In this document: piece by piece, positions 11,657-52,963 of the stretch
Layout of the letters: each line of letters starts with the position of its first letter
How positions within the stretch are numbered: position 1 is the first letter of the stretch
Source: a virus
Strand: one strand, 5' to 3'
Length of the DNA stretch: 57,950 bases
Virus record (IMG/VR): IMGVR_UViG_3300005471_000004
Location: 1-57,950 of that record
Notes under the pieces: generated by a model
The model's input: only the letters and a program-made list of their open reading frames with translations
The model's database searches: none
Told to the model about the DNA's origin: nothing
Program-made: the position numbers and the translations under genes

Positions 11657-11694
11657 CCGCCGCCGGGAGGGTTGCCTGCACCTCCCGGCGGCGG
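11657..11694. terminator. Bidirectional hairpin between convergent operons
   Basis: A perfect 14-bp inverted repeat (11657-11670 with 11681-11694, arms CCGCCGCCGGGAGG) has a 10-base loop. It lies between the stop of the holin-like gene and the stop of the leftward gene at 11698. There is no clear T run. Position between convergent units makes termination in both directions likely. Confidence 0.8.
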
Positions 11695-12003: not shown

Positions 12004-12033
12004 ATCATGCCCCACGAATGACGGGGGTGTCAA
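12004..12033 (-). promoter_or_regulatory. Composite promoter, leftward, for the 11698-11961 gene
   Basis: On the minus strand a TTGACA box (12028-12033), an 18-bp spacer with CCCC...TGGGG arms and a CATGAT -10 box are followed by the conserved leader GGGACAACCGAGAGGGAGAACC before the start codon. Confidence 0.85.
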
Positions 12034-12049
12034 ATCGTGGGGCATGACG

Positions 12050-15853: not shown

Positions 15854-15896
15854 GACTCCCACAATACCCGACATGAACGGGGGTATTGTGGGAGTC
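15854..15896. terminator. 16-bp perfect inverted repeat between SSB gene and leftward promoter
   Basis: Arms 15854-15869 and 15881-15896 pair perfectly over 16 bp around an 11-base loop. It lies just after the SSB stop (15905) for leftward transcription and just ahead of the next leftward promoter. It probably ends the SSB operon and insulates the next unit. It has no T tract, so an operator role is also possible. Confidence 0.7.
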
Positions 15897-20629: not shown

Positions 20630-21013
20630 ATGGCACCACGGATTGACTGGGGTTCGATACGGGAGCTGCTCTGGAAGCGTTGCGGCGGCCTGTGCGAGGC
20701 CAGTGGCGTGCCGCTCGACCCGGACACGTTCGACGTCCACCACCGGCGGAACAAGGGGATGGGCGGCACCTCGCGGCCCGACCGCGACGCGGTGTGGAAC
20801 CTGCTCGCCCTCGACCCGCTCGTCCACAACGGCGGCCCGCAATCGGTGCACGGCCGCCGGAAGTGGGCGGAGGATCGAGGGTTCCTGGTTCCCAAGAACG
20901 TGAACCGGGTTCAGCTCTGGCCCGTCAAGCTGCATGATCGCACGTGGGTTCTGCTCCGTCCGGACGGGGAGTATCACCAGTTCCCCGTCCGGACGGAGGG
21001 AGTCAGGCCTTGA
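20630..21013 (+). CDS. HNH endonuclease-like protein
   Basis: A 127-residue protein with CGGAGGAA ahead of ATG 20630. The segment FDVHHRRNKGMGG near residues 34-46 is the HH motif of HNH nucleases, followed by a WNLLALDPLVHNGGPQSVHG stretch with the conserved Asn and His. One CGGLC motif precedes it. The C-terminus is beta-rich. It is transcribed away from the 20526 operon and converges with the 21245 gene. Confidence 0.8.
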   Translation: MAPRIDWGSIRELLWKRCGGLCEASGVPLDPDTFDVHHRRNKGMGGTSRPDRDAVWNLLALDPLVHNGGPQSVHGRRKWAEDRGFLVPKNVNRVQLWPVKLHDRTWVLLRPDGEYHQFPVRTEGVRP

Positions 21014-21583: not shown

Positions 21584-21613
21584 ATCATGCCCCATGAGTG
21601 GTGGGGGTGTCAA
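21584..21613 (-). promoter_or_regulatory. Composite promoter, leftward, for the 21544 gene
   Basis: A minus-strand TTGACA box (21608-21613), an 18-bp spacer with palindromic arms and a CATGAT -10 box precede the conserved leader and ATG 21544. Confidence 0.88.
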
Positions 21614-21626
21614 GTGGACAAAAGTC

Positions 21627-21658
21627 AGGCCCCGCCAGAGGGTGATCCGGCGGGGCCT
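21627..21658. terminator. 10-bp hairpin
   Basis: A perfect inverted repeat (AGGCCCCGCC, 21627-21636 with 21649-21658) with a 12-base loop sits between the leftward promoter and the replication genes. A terminator for rightward transcription from 20630 or an insulator is likely. Confidence 0.55.
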
Positions 21659-21795
21659 GCATCTAGTGGTTCGCGATCGCGATCCGGCACGGTTCTTGAT
21701 CTTCAACCACACTGGCGCTCGTATCGGACGGGCGCCGAGATCGAGGGTAGCAGCCGCCCAACACCGTGGTAGCGTTCATGTCCTGAACAGCGAAC

Positions 21796-28057: not shown

Positions 28058-28127
28058 GGACTGTAGTTCAGCGGTATGAACACCGACCTCAAGTCGGAGC
28101 CGGTGGGTTCGACTCCCCCCCAGTCCA
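28058..28127 (+). tRNA. tRNA-like RNA B with shortened anticodon loop
   Basis: GGACTG and CAGTCC form the acceptor stem, with TA-GTTC-AGCGGTAT-GAAC as a standard D arm and a TTCGACT T loop. The anticodon hairpin pairs five bases (28083-28087 with 28093-28097) around a loop of only five bases, CTCAA. Read as a 7-base loop the anticodon would be TCA with C at position 33. The T stem also has a mismatch. A functional tRNA is uncertain. Confidence 0.45.
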
Positions 28128-28363: not shown

Positions 28364-28434
28364 CCATGTGTAGCTCAGAAGGCCAGAGCACCAGGGAGAC
28401 CTGGAGGTCGGGGGTTCAACTCCCCTCACGTGGG
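28364..28434 (+). tRNA. tRNA-like RNA D with tetraloop in the anticodon arm
   Basis: Acceptor CCATGTG pairs with CACGTGG (one wobble). The D arm TA-GCTC-N9-GAGC and T arm GGGGG-TTCAACT-CCCCT are canonical. The anticodon arm, however, folds as CCAGG-GAGA-CCTGG, a stem with a GNRA-type tetraloop instead of a 7-base anticodon loop, so no anticodon can be read. Confidence 0.5.
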
Positions 28435-28660
28435 CGGGGTGGATGATCCACGCCGAGGCGGACGTGCAGGCCTGCCGACAGCGGTTCCCGGTCATCAGGG
28501 TCGGCTGCATACCGGCCACACCTCCCAACTCCACAGAGGGCGCCCGTCCATCGGCGCCGATACAAGTTGGTGGAGCCGCACGAAAGCGCGTAAGCCGGTC
28601 GCGACCGCAGTGCAAGTAGGCAGGCGGGTGAGTCGTCGCCACCCGAAAACGAGACGAGGA

Positions 28661-31173: not shown

Positions 31174-31211
31174 TTGACACCCCCACCGTACTTGGGTACA
31201 GTGGGGGTGTC
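31174..31211 (+). promoter_or_regulatory. Composite promoter with palindrome spanning -35 to +1
   Basis: TTGACA (31174-31179), a 17-bp spacer and TACAGT (31197-31202). GACACCCCCAC (31176-31186) pairs with GTGGGGGTGTC (31201-31211), so the inverted repeat covers the whole promoter. The leader follows at 31218-31244. Confidence 0.88.
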
Positions 31212-35198: not shown

Positions 35199-35214
35199 TC
35201 CGTTCGAGTGACGT

Positions 35215-35257
35215 CATGCCCCATGAGTTGACACCCCCACCACTCATGGGGCATGAT
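35215..35257 (+). promoter_or_regulatory. Composite promoter inside a 14-bp perfect palindrome
   Basis: TTGACA (35228-35233), an 18-bp spacer and CATGAT (35252-35257). Outer arms 35215-35228 and 35242-35255 (CATGCCCCATGAGT) pair perfectly, with most of the -35 box in the loop. The conserved leader is at 35271-35294. Confidence 0.9.
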
Positions 35258-35294
35258 AGTCCTATCAGCAGGAACGACCGACAGGGAGAACCTA

Positions 35295-35795
35295 ATGAAC
35301 ACCTCGACCACCGTCACCGTCGGAAGCGGCCGCTCCATCCACTGGGGCTCGGAGTACGGCACCATCTGCGGCGCAGCTCACCGCAGCGGCCGCTTCACCG
35401 CCCCCAAGACGGTCGAGGGCGCCGAGGTCACCTGCAAGCGCTGCGCCAAGATCGTGGCCGCCAAGGTCGAAGAGGCGCACGCCGAGGCCGTGCGGATCGA
35501 CGAGACCCGCACGATCTACCGCGCCCGCAACAGCGTGCAGAGCGAGTCGGTGACGCCGGTGAGCGTCGAGGCTGCGCACGCCGAGGCGCTGGAGGTCGCC
35601 GAGATCCACGCGTTCGAGAAGGCCATGTACATCGAGCTGGTGAGCGAGGGCTCCTCGCCCGAGGACGCCCGCGAGATGGCCTACAGCTGCCGGGACGTCG
35701 ACAGCGCCTGGAGCGAGCCGACGGCGCGCACGGCCCGGTATGACGAGCTGCTGCGCAAGCACGCGGGCACGGTGCCGTTCCTGGTCGGCCGCTGA
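35295..35795 (+). CDS. Hypothetical protein with VTCKRC motif
   Basis: A 166-residue protein starting after the leader. The N-terminus has a Cys (TICGAAH) followed by VTCKRCAKIVAAKVEEAHAEA, a probable zinc site, then a long charged helix. The 36464 protein shares this N-terminal pattern, so the two are likely paralogues. Confidence 0.75.
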   Translation: MNTSTTVTVGSGRSIHWGSEYGTICGAAHRSGRFTAPKTVEGAEVTCKRCAKIVAAKVEEAHAEAVRIDETRTIYRARNSVQSESVTPVSVEAAHAEALEVAEIHAFEKAMYIELVSEGSSPEDAREMAYSCRDVDSAWSEPTARTARYDELLRKHAGTVPFLVGR

Positions 35796-35810
35796 GCTTC
35801 ACTCGAACGG

Positions 35811-35854
35811 AGCACCCCCACCGCTTGACCCATGAGCGATGGGGGTGCTAAGCT
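35811..35854 (+). promoter_or_regulatory. Composite promoter with near-perfect 15-bp palindrome
   Basis: TTGACC (35825-35830), an 18-bp spacer and TAAGCT (35849-35854). Arms 35811-35825 and 35835-35849 pair with one mismatch. The leader follows at 35874-35896. Confidence 0.82.
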
Positions 35855-35896
35855 GTGTCTACAACACCACAGAGGGACAACCGAAAGGGAGAACCG

Positions 35897-36091
35897 ATGC
35901 AAGAGTTCCCGATCATGTCGATGCGGCCAGGCGACCCGGTCACCGTCACCGAAGAGGGCGCGACCCACCAGGGCACCGTCAAGTGGTACGACAGCTACGA
36001 GGGATGGCGCGTCTGCGTCAAGCTGGAGGACGGGAGCGAGCGAGTGTTCCCGGACGGCCCGAACCGCTGGGCCAAGTACTGGAGGGACTGA
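35897..36091 (+). CDS. Small SH3-like hypothetical protein
   Basis: A 64-residue protein after the leader. PGDPVTVTEEGATHQGTVKWYDSYEGWRVCVKLEDGSERVF has the repeating strand pattern of a small SH3-like barrel, which often binds nucleic acid or peptides. Tentative. Confidence 0.65.
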   Translation: MQEFPIMSMRPGDPVTVTEEGATHQGTVKWYDSYEGWRVCVKLEDGSERVFPDGPNRWAKYWRD

Positions 36092-36097
36092 CCGGAC

Positions 36098-36124
36098 GGT
36101 CCCCCGCCACCACGGCGGGGGACC
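36098..36124 (+). terminator. 11-bp hairpin between 36091 and 36145 genes
   Basis: A perfect inverted repeat GGTCCCCCGCC (36098-36108 with 36114-36124) with a 5-base loop. It lies just ahead of a GGAGGGGAGG site, so it may end or reduce transcription into the next gene. Confidence 0.7.
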
Positions 36125-36144
36125 TCCTCGGAGGGGAGGACGGC

Positions 36145-36399
36145 ATGCGCGCCTACGTGGAGCCAGCGCCGTGGATCGACCGCCCGCACCGACCTAAGAC
36201 CGAGTGGCTGATCGAGCTGTTCGTGGAGTGGGTGGAGGCCCAGCACGAGCCGTTCACGCTCAACGAGGCGTGGCGTGGCGCGCACGTCTTCTACCCGACG
36301 GCGCAGCAGACGCTGCTGTCCCTGCGCCGTGCTGGCCTGGTGGTGTGCGTGAACCCTGGCCGCATGCCGCCCCGGTACATCCGTTACGACAGGGCTTGA
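36145..36399 (+). CDS. Hypothetical winged-helix-like protein
   Basis: An 84-residue protein with GGAGGGGAGG ahead of ATG 36145. The sequence TEWLIELFVEWVEAQ...FTLNEAWRGAHVFYPTAQQTLLSLRRAGLVV has the spacing of a winged helix with a recognition helix and wing. DNA binding is plausible. Confidence 0.6.
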   Translation: MRAYVEPAPWIDRPHRPKTEWLIELFVEWVEAQHEPFTLNEAWRGAHVFYPTAQQTLLSLRRAGLVVCVNPGRMPPRYIRYDRA

Positions 36400-36425
36400 C
36401 ACCCCCACCGCACCTGGGCTACAGT
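36396..36425 (+). promoter_or_regulatory. Composite promoter for the 36464 operon
   Basis: TTGACA (36396-36401), an 18-bp spacer with CCCA...TGGG and TACAGT, then the leader at 36439-36463. The box overlaps the stop of the 36145 gene. Confidence 0.9.
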
Positions 36426-36463
36426 AGTCCCATCAGCAGGGACAACCGAGAGGGAGAACCGAA

Positions 36464-37315
36464 ATGATCAAGGGAATCCGGATCAACAAGAGCACCGTCG
36501 TCCACCGCTACTGGGTCGCCAGCGACCGCACCGACTGTGGCGCCGGTGGCATGGGTGACGCGAGCGTCAACGGCGGCACGGTCACCAGCGACGCCGTCAC
36601 CTGCAAGCGCTGCCTGAAGGCGCTCGCCGCCCAGGCCGAGCGCGACCACGCGGAGGCCCTGGAGCTGGACGCGCAGCTGGAGCAGGCGGCGGCCGAGGCG
36701 GCGCAGCTGCTGGCCGAGACCGCCGCGCAGGCCGACAGTGCGATCGAGCTGGCCCGCGACGCTGACGCTCACTGGTTCCTCGGCGACGACGGCCTCTGGA
36801 GGGGAGCGGACCGCGTGCTGTTGCACTGCGACGTGACGGTGAGCAAGCGGCACCCCTCGCACGAGGGTCCGTGCTTCGACTCGGTGGCCAGCACGTGGCG
36901 CGTGGAGCCGGTGGAGCCGAAGTGCTCCCGGCGCCAGGGTCGAGCGGAGCGCCGGTCACTGCGGGCGAAGCTGCGCCGCACGGCCCCCCAGACGCGCGCT
37001 GTCGCCCGCGCGCGCCGCGCCCAGCGTGGTGACGCCCGCGCGACCGCCAAGACGCTCCTCGTGGCCACCGGGGTGCCGCAGGACGTAGCCCAGCGCTACG
37101 CCCCCGCGTTCTCCCGTGGCGTCGAGGCGCCGACCGTGCCGACCCGCGTGCGGACGGGCGAGCACCGCTCCAAGCGCGTCGAGGTGAAGCGCTACGCGTG
37201 GTGCCAGTTCGTCAACCGGTTGCACACCTTCACTCCGATGGCGCGTGCAGGCAGCTCGCGCTACCGCGAGGCCGTGGCAGCGTTCCACGCGGCACGTGAG
37301 CGCGTGCCCGCATGA
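36464..37315 (+). CDS. Hypothetical protein with VTCKRC motif and basic C-terminus
   Basis: A 283-residue protein. Residues 20-65 have CGAGG...VTCKRCLKALAAQAERDHAEA, matching the 35295 protein. An Ala/Glu-rich helix follows, then a small domain with two Cys (HCDVTVSKRHPSHEGPC), and from residue about 150 a strongly basic Arg/Ala-rich region that probably binds nucleic acid. The conserved N-terminal pattern points to gene duplication. Confidence 0.75.
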   Translation: MIKGIRINKSTVVHRYWVASDRTDCGAGGMGDASVNGGTVTSDAVTCKRCLKALAAQAERDHAEALELDAQLEQAAAEAAQLLAETAAQADSAIELARDADAHWFLGDDGLWRGADRVLLHCDVTVSKRHPSHEGPCFDSVASTWRVEPVEPKCSRRQGRAERRSLRAKLRRTAPQTRAVARARRAQRGDARATAKTLLVATGVPQDVAQRYAPAFSRGVEAPTVPTRVRTGEHRSKRVEVKRYAWCQFVNRLHTFTPMARAGSSRYREAVAAFHAARERVPA

Positions 37316-37587
37316 GGCGCCTGTTCGCGGTGGCGGCCGTCGCGCTCGTGGCGGCCTGCTCCACCCTCGACCACGGCACGGTGACCGAGAAGAAGTGGTT
37401 CGACGAGTACGTGACGCTCATGCCCGTGTGGACGTCGTGCGGGAACAACTGTTCGACGCTGACCACGGTGGAGATCTACACGCCCGCGTGCTGGCAGCTG
37501 TTCCTGCGGGACGGCGAGGAGACGGGGGCGCCGTGCGTTGAGCCGAACGAGTGGATGCGCTACCAGGTCGGAGGGCAGTACCCGTGA
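37312..37587 (+). CDS. Predicted lipoprotein
   Basis: A 91-residue protein overlapping its neighbour by ATGA. The N-terminus MRRLFAVAAVALVAAC is a classical lipoprotein signal with the lipobox VAAC. The mature part has three more Cys (TSCGNNCS, PAC) and beta pattern. A surface or membrane-attached lipoprotein in an infected cell may block superinfection; that is inference. Confidence 0.75.
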   Translation: MRRLFAVAAVALVAACSTLDHGTVTEKKWFDEYVTLMPVWTSCGNNCSTLTTVEIYTPACWQLFLRDGEETGAPCVEPNEWMRYQVGGQYP

Positions 37588-37802
37588 GGCGGACCAAGAC
37601 CTTCGGTGACGTGAAGGTGGGCCACGTGATCACGTACGGCTCAGCGCGCCTGCTGATCACGTGCGTGGTGAAGCTGCCCGAGTCGGACCACGGCCAGCGT
37701 GTCGAGGTGAGCGGCCAGACGATCAGCGCAACTCACCAGGTGGGCAAGACGTTCAGGGCTGGGGCACTGCGTGAGGTCGTCATTCACAACTGGCACAGCT
37801 GA
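37584..37802 (+). CDS. Hypothetical small protein
   Basis: A 72-residue protein from GTG 37584, overlapping the lipoprotein gene by GTGA. A beta-rich pattern (FGDVKVGHVITYGSARLLITCVVKL). No family recognised. Confidence 0.68.
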   Translation: MRRTKTFGDVKVGHVITYGSARLLITCVVKLPESDHGQRVEVSGQTISATHQVGKTFRAGALREVVIHNWHS

Positions 37803-37806
37803 CCAC

Positions 37807-37836
37807 TTGACACCCCCACCGCACGTGGGCTACAGT
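37807..37836 (+). promoter_or_regulatory. Composite promoter for the 37878 gene
   Basis: TTGACA (37807-37812), an 18-bp spacer with CCCAC...GTGGG and TACAGT, then the leader at 37852-37877. Confidence 0.92.
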
Positions 37837-37877
37837 TCTCCTATCAGGCCAGGAACGACCGACAGGGAGAACCGACC

Positions 37878-38240
37878 ATGGACCACGCGAAGCTGATCGA
37901 GGCGGCCATCAAGAACGAGACCTGGGCCCGCGACACCGCAGCCCCGGAAGACCGTCACTTCTGGGATGGCTGGACCCCCGAGGCCGTCCGGGCTGGTTAC
38001 CTCCGCGCATCGGTGATCACCAGCGCGCCGGGGCAGGGCCACACGGTGATCGTGACCCGCGTGCTGATGGTCTGCTCTGACGGTGGCGAGGGTCTCGCCA
38101 CCGTGCCGGACACGGAGGCCGTGGAGCGCGTCAACGCGCGAGTCATCCACCGTGCCGGGGGTCTGGAGGCCTACGCACGCAAGGTCGCCGCGTCCGCCTA
38201 CGGCGCAGGCATCCCCGTGAAGGTCAGGCACTACGCGTAG
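37878..38240 (+). CDS. Hypothetical protein
   Basis: A 120-residue protein after the conserved leader. DHAKLIEAAIKNETWARDTAAPE begins a helical N-terminus; the rest alternates strands and helices. No known domain. Single gene unit. Confidence 0.75.
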   Translation: MDHAKLIEAAIKNETWARDTAAPEDRHFWDGWTPEAVRAGYLRASVITSAPGQGHTVIVTRVLMVCSDGGEGLATVPDTEAVERVNARVIHRAGGLEAYARKVAASAYGAGIPVKVRHYA

Positions 38241-38256
38241 GCCGTTCGAGTGAGAC

Positions 38257-38300
38257 ACGGGCGGTGGGTTTGACACCCCCACCGCCCGTGGGTTAGAGTA
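38257..38300 (+). promoter_or_regulatory. Composite promoter inside a 13-bp perfect palindrome
   Basis: TTGACA (38271-38276), an 18-bp spacer and TAGAGT. Outer arms 38257-38269 and 38279-38291 (CACGGGCGGTGGG) pair perfectly around the -35 box. The leader is at 38314-38338. Confidence 0.9.
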
Positions 38301-38338
38301 CTTACATCAGCAGGAACCACCGCGAGGGAGAACCTAAG

Positions 38339-38659
38339 ATGATCGCCAACATCGCCGCCGCCGCCGCCGTCCTCCGCGCCAACGCCGCCCTCCTCGGCCG
38401 CCACGGCTACACCGTCGCCACCCTGATCGCGACCCTGGTGACCGTGGCCAACCGCGCCGAGTACAACGGCGCCGACTACGCGATTCGCTCCCTGGCTGGC
38501 CGCATCGCTGGCGTGGCCGAGGGTGTCGACGCGGCCAACGGCATCACCGTCAAGGGTTCCGCTCGCACCGGCCTGAGCGTGGTCGTCCCCGTTGGTGCTG
38601 ACACCGCCGAGGCGAACGCGCTGCACCGCGTGGTGACTGACCTGCTGGCCGCCGCCTGA
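38339..38659 (+). CDS. Hypothetical Ala-rich protein
   Basis: A 106-residue protein after the leader, dominated by Ala and Val (IANIAAAAAVLRANAALLGRHGYTVATL). Mostly helical. It is a single-gene unit between two palindromic promoters. Unknown function. Confidence 0.72.
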   Translation: MIANIAAAAAVLRANAALLGRHGYTVATLIATLVTVANRAEYNGADYAIRSLAGRIAGVAEGVDAANGITVKGSARTGLSVVVPVGADTAEANALHRVVTDLLAAA

Positions 38660-38665
38660 TTGACG

Positions 38666-38711
38666 CCACAGATGGTGGGACTTGACACCCCCACCATCTG
38701 TGGGCTACAGT
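38666..38711 (+). promoter_or_regulatory. Composite promoter inside a 14-bp perfect palindrome
   Basis: TTGACA (38682-38687), an 18-bp spacer and TACAGT. Outer arms 38666-38679 and 38690-38703 (CCACAGATGGTGGG) pair perfectly. The leader is at 38724-38747. Confidence 0.92.
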
Positions 38712-38747
38712 AGCCCTATCAGCGGAACAACCGAGAGGGAGAACCAC

Positions 38748-38957
38748 ATGAACGCCAAGCCGATCGCAGAGTTCACGAAGATCGCCTACCAGGGCAGCAT
38801 CACCGAGTACCACGGGGCGCAGCTCTGGCTGGAGTACTGCGGGTGCGCCGGTTGCGGTCCGGACTGGGCGAACGGCTCCCCTCGCTACAACCTGTTCGAC
38901 GACTTCGGCCGCGAACGCCTGCACCACGTGCGCGACGCGTCGGTTCGGGTGGCCTAA
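38748..38957 (+). CDS. Small Cys-containing protein
   Basis: A 69-residue protein after the leader with YCGCAGCGPDW, a CxCxxC motif near residue 31-36. Probably binds a metal. Single gene followed by two small genes. Confidence 0.7.
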   Translation: MNAKPIAEFTKIAYQGSITEYHGAQLWLEYCGCAGCGPDWANGSPRYNLFDDFGRERLHHVRDASVRVA

Positions 38958-39714: not shown

Positions 39715-39744
39715 TTGCGTACCCCCATGCGATGGGGGTACGCT
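39715..39744 (+). promoter_or_regulatory. Composite promoter with perfect palindrome filling the spacer
   Basis: TTGCGT (39715-39720) and TACGCT (39739-39744) with an 18-bp spacer. GCGTACCCCCAT (39717-39728) pairs perfectly with 39732-39743 around a three-base centre. The leader is at 39758-39782. Confidence 0.88.
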
Positions 39745-40337: not shown

Positions 40338-40370
40338 GCAGGTCGGGCCTCACATCGGGGCCCGACCTGC
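40338..40370 (+). terminator. 12-bp hairpin after the 39783 gene
   Basis: A perfect inverted repeat GCAGGTCGGGCC (40338-40349 with 40359-40370) with a 9-base loop, 12 bases after the stop codon. Likely terminator or attenuator before the 40393 gene. Confidence 0.75.
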
Positions 40371-41616: not shown

Positions 41617-41658
41617 GCGAAAGCACCCCGCACCCACCATGGGTCGGGGTGCTTTCGC
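41617..41658 (+). terminator. Strong terminator between early and structural regions
   Basis: A 14-bp perfect stem (41617-41630 with 41645-41658, arms GCGAAAGCACCCCG) with an inner ACCC/GGGT pairing gives a very stable hairpin. It separates the small-gene region from the structural operon. Confidence 0.85.
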
Positions 41659-48290: not shown

Positions 48291-48333
48291 CTTGACACCC
48301 CCGTCAGTCGTGGGGCATGATGGGGGTGTCAAG
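48291..48333 (+). promoter_or_regulatory. Composite promoter with palindrome spanning the whole element, inside the head operon
   Basis: TTGACA (48292-48297), an 18-bp spacer and CATGAT (48316-48321). CTTGACACCCCC (48291-48302) pairs perfectly with 48322-48333. The leader is at 48337-48363. Confidence 0.9.
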
Positions 48334-52923: not shown

Positions 52924-52963
52924 CCAGGCCGCGCCGGTTCGCCCGACGCCCGGCGCGGCCTGG
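52924..52963 (+). terminator. 14-bp hairpin after the capsid gene
   Basis: A perfect inverted repeat CCAGGCCGCGCCGG (52924-52937 with 52950-52963) with a 12-base loop follows the capsid stop. It probably trims or attenuates transcription, giving more capsid message than downstream message. Confidence 0.75.

Follow-up and report, generated by a model that had tools for sequence, protein, structure and literature searches.

Virus record IMGVR_UViG_3300005471_000004, all 57,950 bases of which were analysed here (hereafter, the window; 68% G+C), carries about twenty copies of one promoter, and several of these are accompanied by inverted repeats whose arms change from copy to copy. The question raised by this locus is whether such palindromes are operators that act in the DNA or hairpins that act in the RNA. 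The evidence set out below favours RNA: each palindrome is most likely a hairpin at the 3' end of the upstream mRNA, and specifically an intrinsic terminator that shares its DNA with the promoter of the next gene, where termination by polymerase is what we infer from the sequence.

The promoter copies of the window have the form TTGACACCCCCACC or a near variant, with GGGG at the end of the spacer and a -10 box of which TACAGT is an example; ahead of the start codon, their leader ends in GGGAGAACC. This leader, AGGAACRACC...GGGAGAACC, is conserved directly 5' of start codons (window 29249, 31233, 35284, 36452, 38326 and others). The combination characteristic of sigma70/SigA-type promoters (TTGACA, a spacer of 16–19 nt and a TANNNT-like -10 box) was found eight times versus 0.8 expected, and the copies are presumed to be working promoters. 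Relatives of the window are present in IMG/VR and their promoters have the same layout, often with TTGACACCCA and GGAACAACC...GGAAGGACC. The set used for statistics comprises 182 promoters, from the window and the 20 IMG/VR relatives in which the promoter rule yielded copies.

Perfect inverted repeats of 11–15 bp are present at seven of the 17 motif-defined promoters of the window. The largest perfect stems are sharply bimodal in length (15, 14, 13, 13, 12, 12 and 11 bp, versus 7 bp or less), and shuffled controls had stems of at least 11 bp at 0.005 promoters on average, versus the seven observed; the promoter at 35811 lies outside this set of 17. All seven repeats listed in the original prediction could be located to within 1 nt, the one at 35214–35256 being a perfect stem of 15 rather than 14 bp, and the list had omitted an eighth, of 13 bp, at 12005–12047 on the minus strand. 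RNA fold z-scores range from -3.2 to -7.5 for the eight window hairpins, versus +0.6 and -0.4 for two hairpin-free promoters. The eight hairpins, and one of the promoters that lacks one, are as follows.

35214..35256, plus strand: shared hairpin, TCATGCCCCATGAGT / ACTCATGGGGCATGA, 15 bp perfect, loop 13, fold z -5.7; -35 TTGACA 35228–35233 at the loop, -10 CATGAT 35252–35257; the 3' arm is the spacer and most of the -10 box
35811..35849, plus strand: shared hairpin, AGCACCCCCACCGCT / AGCGATGGGGGTGCT, 15 bp with one mismatch, loop 9, fold z -4.1; -35 TTGACC 35825–35830, -10 TAAGCT 35849–35854
38256..38290, plus strand: shared hairpin, CACGGGCGGTGGG / CCCACCGCCCGTG, 13 bp, loop 9; -35 TTGACA 38270–38275 within the loop, -10 TAGAGT 38294–38299
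38666..38703, plus strand: shared hairpin, CCACAGATGGTGGG / CCCACCATCTGTGG, 14 bp, loop 10, fold z -5.6; -35 38682–38687 within the loop, -10 TACAGT 38706–38711
12005..12047, minus strand: shared hairpin, TCATGCCCCACGA / TCGTGGGGCATGA, 13 bp, loop 17, fold z -7.5; -35 12033–12028
39717..39743, plus strand: promoter-internal hairpin, GCGTACCCCCAT / ATGGGGGTACGC, 12 bp, loop 3, followed by TCCTTTTATC; -35 TTGCGT 39715–39720, -10 TACGCT 39739–39744
31176..31211, plus strand: downstream-shifted hairpin, GACACCCCCAC / GTGGGGGTGTC, 11 bp perfect, 16 bp with one mismatch, fold z -5.0; -35 inside the 5' arm, 3' arm extending beyond the -10 box
48291..48333, plus strand: downstream-shifted hairpin, CTTGACACCCCCGTCA / TGATGGGGGTGTCAAG, 12 bp perfect, 16 bp with one mismatch, fold z -4.0
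36396..36425, plus strand: hairpin-free promoter, with the TGA stop of the upstream gene within TTGACA; fold z +0.6

Three geometries are represented. In the commonest (35214, 35811, 38256, 38666 and 12005), the 5' arm lies upstream of the -35 box and the 3' arm in the spacer, frequently extending into the -10 box; at 39717 both arms lie within the promoter; and at 31176 and 48291 a downstream arm covers the -10 box and start region. The proposal that the loop holds the -35 box of the next gene is accordingly correct for five of the eight window copies, all of upstream-arm geometry, and incorrect for the other three.

That arms differ between copies and pair within each copy had been claimed from a few copies in a single genome, too few to serve as proof, and is confirmed over the 182 promoters. 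Perfect stems of at least 12 bp between upstream flank and promoter spacer occur in 23 of them, versus a mean of 0.21 (maximum 2) when upstream flanks are exchanged among the same promoters with the CCCC/GGGG cores retained. The covariation anticipated for related phages is likewise found. Between the orthologous promoters G008:10411 and G014:12214, whose upstream and downstream proteins are 83% and 75% identical, eight of the 18 pairs are compensatory, and crossing the arms leaves nine pairs. Twenty copies placed in register contain 51 double-change cells, versus 13.5 in shuffles, and in the relative G001 two outer stem pairs of hairpin 38256 have changed, both to wobbles (U.G and G.U).

The occurrence of hairpins follows the position of the preceding gene. 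An upstream-arm hairpin is present at 29 of the 30 promoters whose -35 box starts 13–33 nt past a co-directional stop codon, at one of 44 with gaps of 12 nt or less, and at four of 47 with gaps of 34–300 nt (Fisher p = 2e-22 for the 13–33 nt rule); in this last range, 19 other promoters have a separate hairpin of at least 8 bp. The gene calls underlying the rule were made without reference to hairpins. Promoter 35228 is counted at a gap of 103 nt, probably owing to a missed small reading frame with its end at 35199, which puts the real gap at 28 nt. The single hairpin-bearing case among 24 promoters called divergent is really co-directional, a gene having been missed, which leaves 0 of 23, and the hairpins are found at co-directional gene ends only. 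Those of the upstream type start a few nucleotides past the stop codon in the sense of the transcript, as intrinsic terminators do, and intergenic gaps tend to contain nothing, one arm or a complete hairpin. At 20 of the 182 promoters (window 26909, 29195 and 36396, and 17 in relatives), the upstream gene's TGA stop falls exactly within the -35 TTGACA, and no space is left for an upstream arm. Some 19% of the promoters (35/182) appear to share DNA with the hairpin of an upstream gene end.

Hairpins also occur at gene ends by themselves. These genomes contain 254 perfect hairpins of at least 11 bp, versus 28 mirror-repeat controls, and 142 of the 165 that are intergenic lie near a stop codon. 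Mean stem length is 13.4 bp for these versus 13.9 bp for promoter hairpins, and proximity to stop codons is alike, which argues that the promoter hairpins are part of a larger gene-end class. Members of this class in the window are the following.

15854..15896, minus strand: standalone hairpin, 16 bp, between the ssb stop codon and promoter 15850 (minus strand)
21626..21659, minus strand: standalone hairpin and, after it, a T-rich stretch; promoter 21613 (minus strand) lies just downstream
40338..40370, plus strand: standalone gene-end hairpin, GCAGGTCGGGCC / GGCCCGACCTGC, 12 nt past the stop codon, with no promoter
11657–11694, 20954–20998, 36098–36124, 41617–41658 and 52924–52963: other promoter-free gene-end hairpins

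The two types can replace one another at the same gene end. At the 3' end of ssb, a standalone hairpin precedes the promoter in the window, G002 and G004, and the hairpin is shared in G008, G014 and G023; in G025, the ssb gene overlaps the -35 box. After another upstream gene the hairpin is downstream-shifted in the window (48292) and of the upstream type in the relative L149. This interchangeability argues for a single function.

After the shared stems, U averages 3.3 over 8 nt and 3.9 over 10 nt, values inside the range given for Streptomyces terminators in PMC12207403 and PMC8269248. According to these Term-seq studies, hairpin length and stability are greatest in Streptomyces terminators, the following 10 nt contain only 3–4 U and the hairpins covary (PMC12207403), and many structured 3' ends in Streptomyces are without U-tracts (PMC8269248). 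The weak-U-tract terminators of actinobacteria described there, including the I-shaped type, resemble the window hairpins in having long stable GC stems, 3–4 U in 10 nt and covariation. The reading of the shared hairpins as terminators comes from this comparison and from their 3.9 U in 10 nt. The window hairpins differ in that the 3' arm is also the promoter of the next gene, a feature that the portions consulted of the two reports do not describe for Streptomyces terminators.

A number of observations weigh against this interpretation. The U-tracts are modest, with 23 of 33 hairpins having at least 3 U in 8 nt, and hairpin-free promoters also have a fairly T-rich start region (2.35 of 8); standalone hairpins are U-poorer still (1.7 of 8), and the loops, which reach 17 nt, are longer than is usual in terminators. 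The gap between stop codon and promoter owes part of its length to the arm where one is present, and the genes were called with a home-made caller. The G008/G014 pair and the twenty-copy set were chosen for pairing, which inflates their percentages, a bias of which the flank swap is free. The excess of G.T over A.C is weak (18 versus 12.3 expected, with A.C undepleted; 4 to 1 internally), and this wobble asymmetry, though in the right direction, is not relied on as proof of action in RNA. Finally, promoters that overlap the upstream gene or lie within 12 nt of it are mostly hairpin-free, so insulation is not universal and the earlier suggestion that every unit is insulated does not hold.

The main rival to termination is stabilization or processing of the RNA end, in which a non-terminating hairpin would serve as an exonuclease barrier, as the end point of Rho trimming or as an RNase III site. 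Its anatomy would be the same as that of a terminator, and according to PMC8269248, U-poor Streptomyces hairpins may be Rho-trimmed or processed ends. However, U residues after the stem are richer at shared hairpins than at standalone ones, and the simplest reason for placing a hairpin on a promoter would be to spare that promoter from read-through. We consider such a role unlikely.

Action of the palindromes as DNA, either as operators of a dimeric repressor with shifting specificity or as cruciforms that gate the promoter, seems very unlikely. It could draw on the CCCC..GGGG dyad found in the -35/-10 spacer of nearly every promoter (for example, at window 36400–36420), and on the interpretation of ESAS repeats in cluster K mycobacteriophages as binding sites (PMC3203893, PMC11373665). 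Pairing of this dyad is equally good within a copy and between copies, and it is therefore a fixed element; it is weaker in hairpin-bearing copies, and may be an operator besides the hairpin. The long arms, in contrast, do not pair across copies (13.2 own, 6.5 swapped), unlike the arms of ESAS in Pixie and Anaya, which follow a consensus sequence (11.4 own, 10.9 swapped). The swap destroys pairing here but not in ESAS, and the elements described here are therefore not ESAS. A DNA-level role is also at odds with the dependence of the hairpin on the orientation of the upstream gene and the distance to its stop codon, and with the similar hairpins at promoter-free gene ends. A fixed operator of the phiC31 CIR or L5 stoperator type was rejected for the long arms, as no single sequence is conserved across copies. 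The original preference for selection on a hairpin over a fixed operator is thus well supported by the flank swaps, orthologue covariation, the spacing rule, the lack of confirmed divergent cases, the equivalence to standalone gene-end hairpins and the contrast with ESAS.

The cluster K elements are otherwise the closest described counterpart. SAS/ESAS are multi-copy SigA-like promoters with an inverted repeat and a leader near the start codon (PMC3203893, PMC11373665), and like the hairpin-promoters they stand upstream of small phage genes, with the inverted repeat and conserved leader before the start. The ESAS arms flank the -10 box, whereas the hairpins here mostly hold the -35 box in the loop. 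The AGGAACRACC...GGGAGAACC leader is analogous to SAS but distinct from it, SAS being GGGATAGGAGCCC in cluster K and the leader here GGGAGAACC or GGGAAGGACC-like. According to the 2011 authors on cluster K, departures from the ESAS consensus give no support for RNA pairing. Stretches of the phages phiC31, VWB, R4, Pixie and Anaya were read for hairpins of the same geometry and contained none.

Less probable again is a purely mutational origin, in which template switching at quasi-palindromes makes perfect repeats in the absence of selection. One such event is enough to yield a long and perfect repeat, whatever its sequence, and can mimic covariation. This origin predicts no dependence on upstream orientation or on a gap of 13–33 nt, whereas both are observed; orthologues keep pairing through compensatory changes and intergenic repeats cluster past stop codons, and on these grounds it was rejected. 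The idea that C-rich and G-rich tracts pair by chance or through low complexity in DNA of this composition, as the CCCC and GGGG cores guarantee to some extent, has a negligible probability, as it is refuted by the flank swaps with cores kept (0.21 versus 23) and by the shuffles (0.005 versus 7).

If the hairpins are terminators, as we prefer, the gap of 13–33 nt after the stop codon would supply the 5' arm, and the next promoter would supply the 3' arm (its spacer and often its -10 box), leaving the -35 box in the loop. As duplex DNA, the segment would serve as a normal promoter of sigma70/SigA type. Once it had been transcribed by polymerase coming from upstream, the RNA would fold into a long, GC-rich, U-poor hairpin of the actinobacterial terminator type, which would end (or protect) the upstream transcript and limit read-through into the next gene, presumably for insulation. 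With the spacer drifting freely, the 5' arm would have to track it, and covariation would follow. We regard as evenly poised whether the whole constitutes a composite part, with the promoter doubling as the second half of the terminator of the gene before it, and with some 40 bp that end one transcript, start the next and possibly couple both; coupling would be possible because polymerases arriving from upstream and those starting at the promoter would use the same DNA.

Terminators and promoters are known to meet elsewhere. In E. coli, the terminator of the upstream frd operon interlocks with the region of the downstream ampC promoter, at a single site and with the terminator after the promoter, whereas the element described here is repeated and has the -35 box in its loop. 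Searches of the open-access literature for natural overlapping terminator-promoter elements gave an engineered yeast part and otherwise only papers of no relevance.

Further observations concern the movement and surroundings of the promoters. The copies at 21613 (minus strand) and 35228 have more than 60 identical nt of promoter and leader, and their flanks are unlike: that of 35228 is an upstream arm, and that of 21613 is a standalone hairpin and then a T-rich stretch, with no upstream arm. This suggests movement as a cassette. Relative to window 38660–38760, G001 is without the promoter and start of gene 38748, the preceding promoter being nearly identical, a difference that is read as the gain or loss of a module. 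A 10-mer, GTTCGAGTGA (often TAGTCCGTTCGAGTGA), recurs in distant relatives, placed after a stop codon and before a promoter that in most cases has a hairpin. It is located at 35202, 38244, 12059 (minus strand) and 35808 (minus strand; the one inverted case) in the window, and at G009 4015 (minus strand), G010 56362, G011 32140 (minus strand), G024 21273 and G001 31 in relatives, and is possibly a 3'-untranslated-region or binding element.

Recognizable gene products of the window include a terminase, SSB, an Erf-like annealing protein, a DnaC-like loader and a head protein; a portal-like protein has about 30% identity, over half of its length, to portals from phages of Microbacterium, Gordonia and other actinobacteria. 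A nucleotide search of a phage collection with window 30–50 kb gave no match. Bacterial genomes scanned with the promoter-plus-leader pattern gave 28 scattered single matches and none with several in one genome, so no prophage or host is assigned; in a loose viral scan with the promoter alone, the matches listed were mostly one per contig. An Rfam scan of the window gave nothing beyond two tRNA matches; the tRNA-like matches lie at 28364–28435, the anticodon of which ARAGORN could not read, and 28058–28127.

The hairpin-promoter is a real and apparently selected feature found throughout this family of uncultivated actinobacterial phages, in which terminator and promoter appear to be fused into one element. 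Promoters and terminators are usually handled as separate parts, and programs that seek one overlook an element that is both; here, a simple spacing rule predicts where shared hairpins occur. The arrangement accounts for palindromes that covary and might be taken for operators; in GC-rich genomes, it would represent a compact natural way of insulating genes in tandem. It predicts that breaking one arm would increase read-through and leave the promoter intact. If the composite part is as proposed, each gene could have a promoter and a terminator of its own with gaps of only some 20 nt between genes, and such genes could be shuffled like cassettes.

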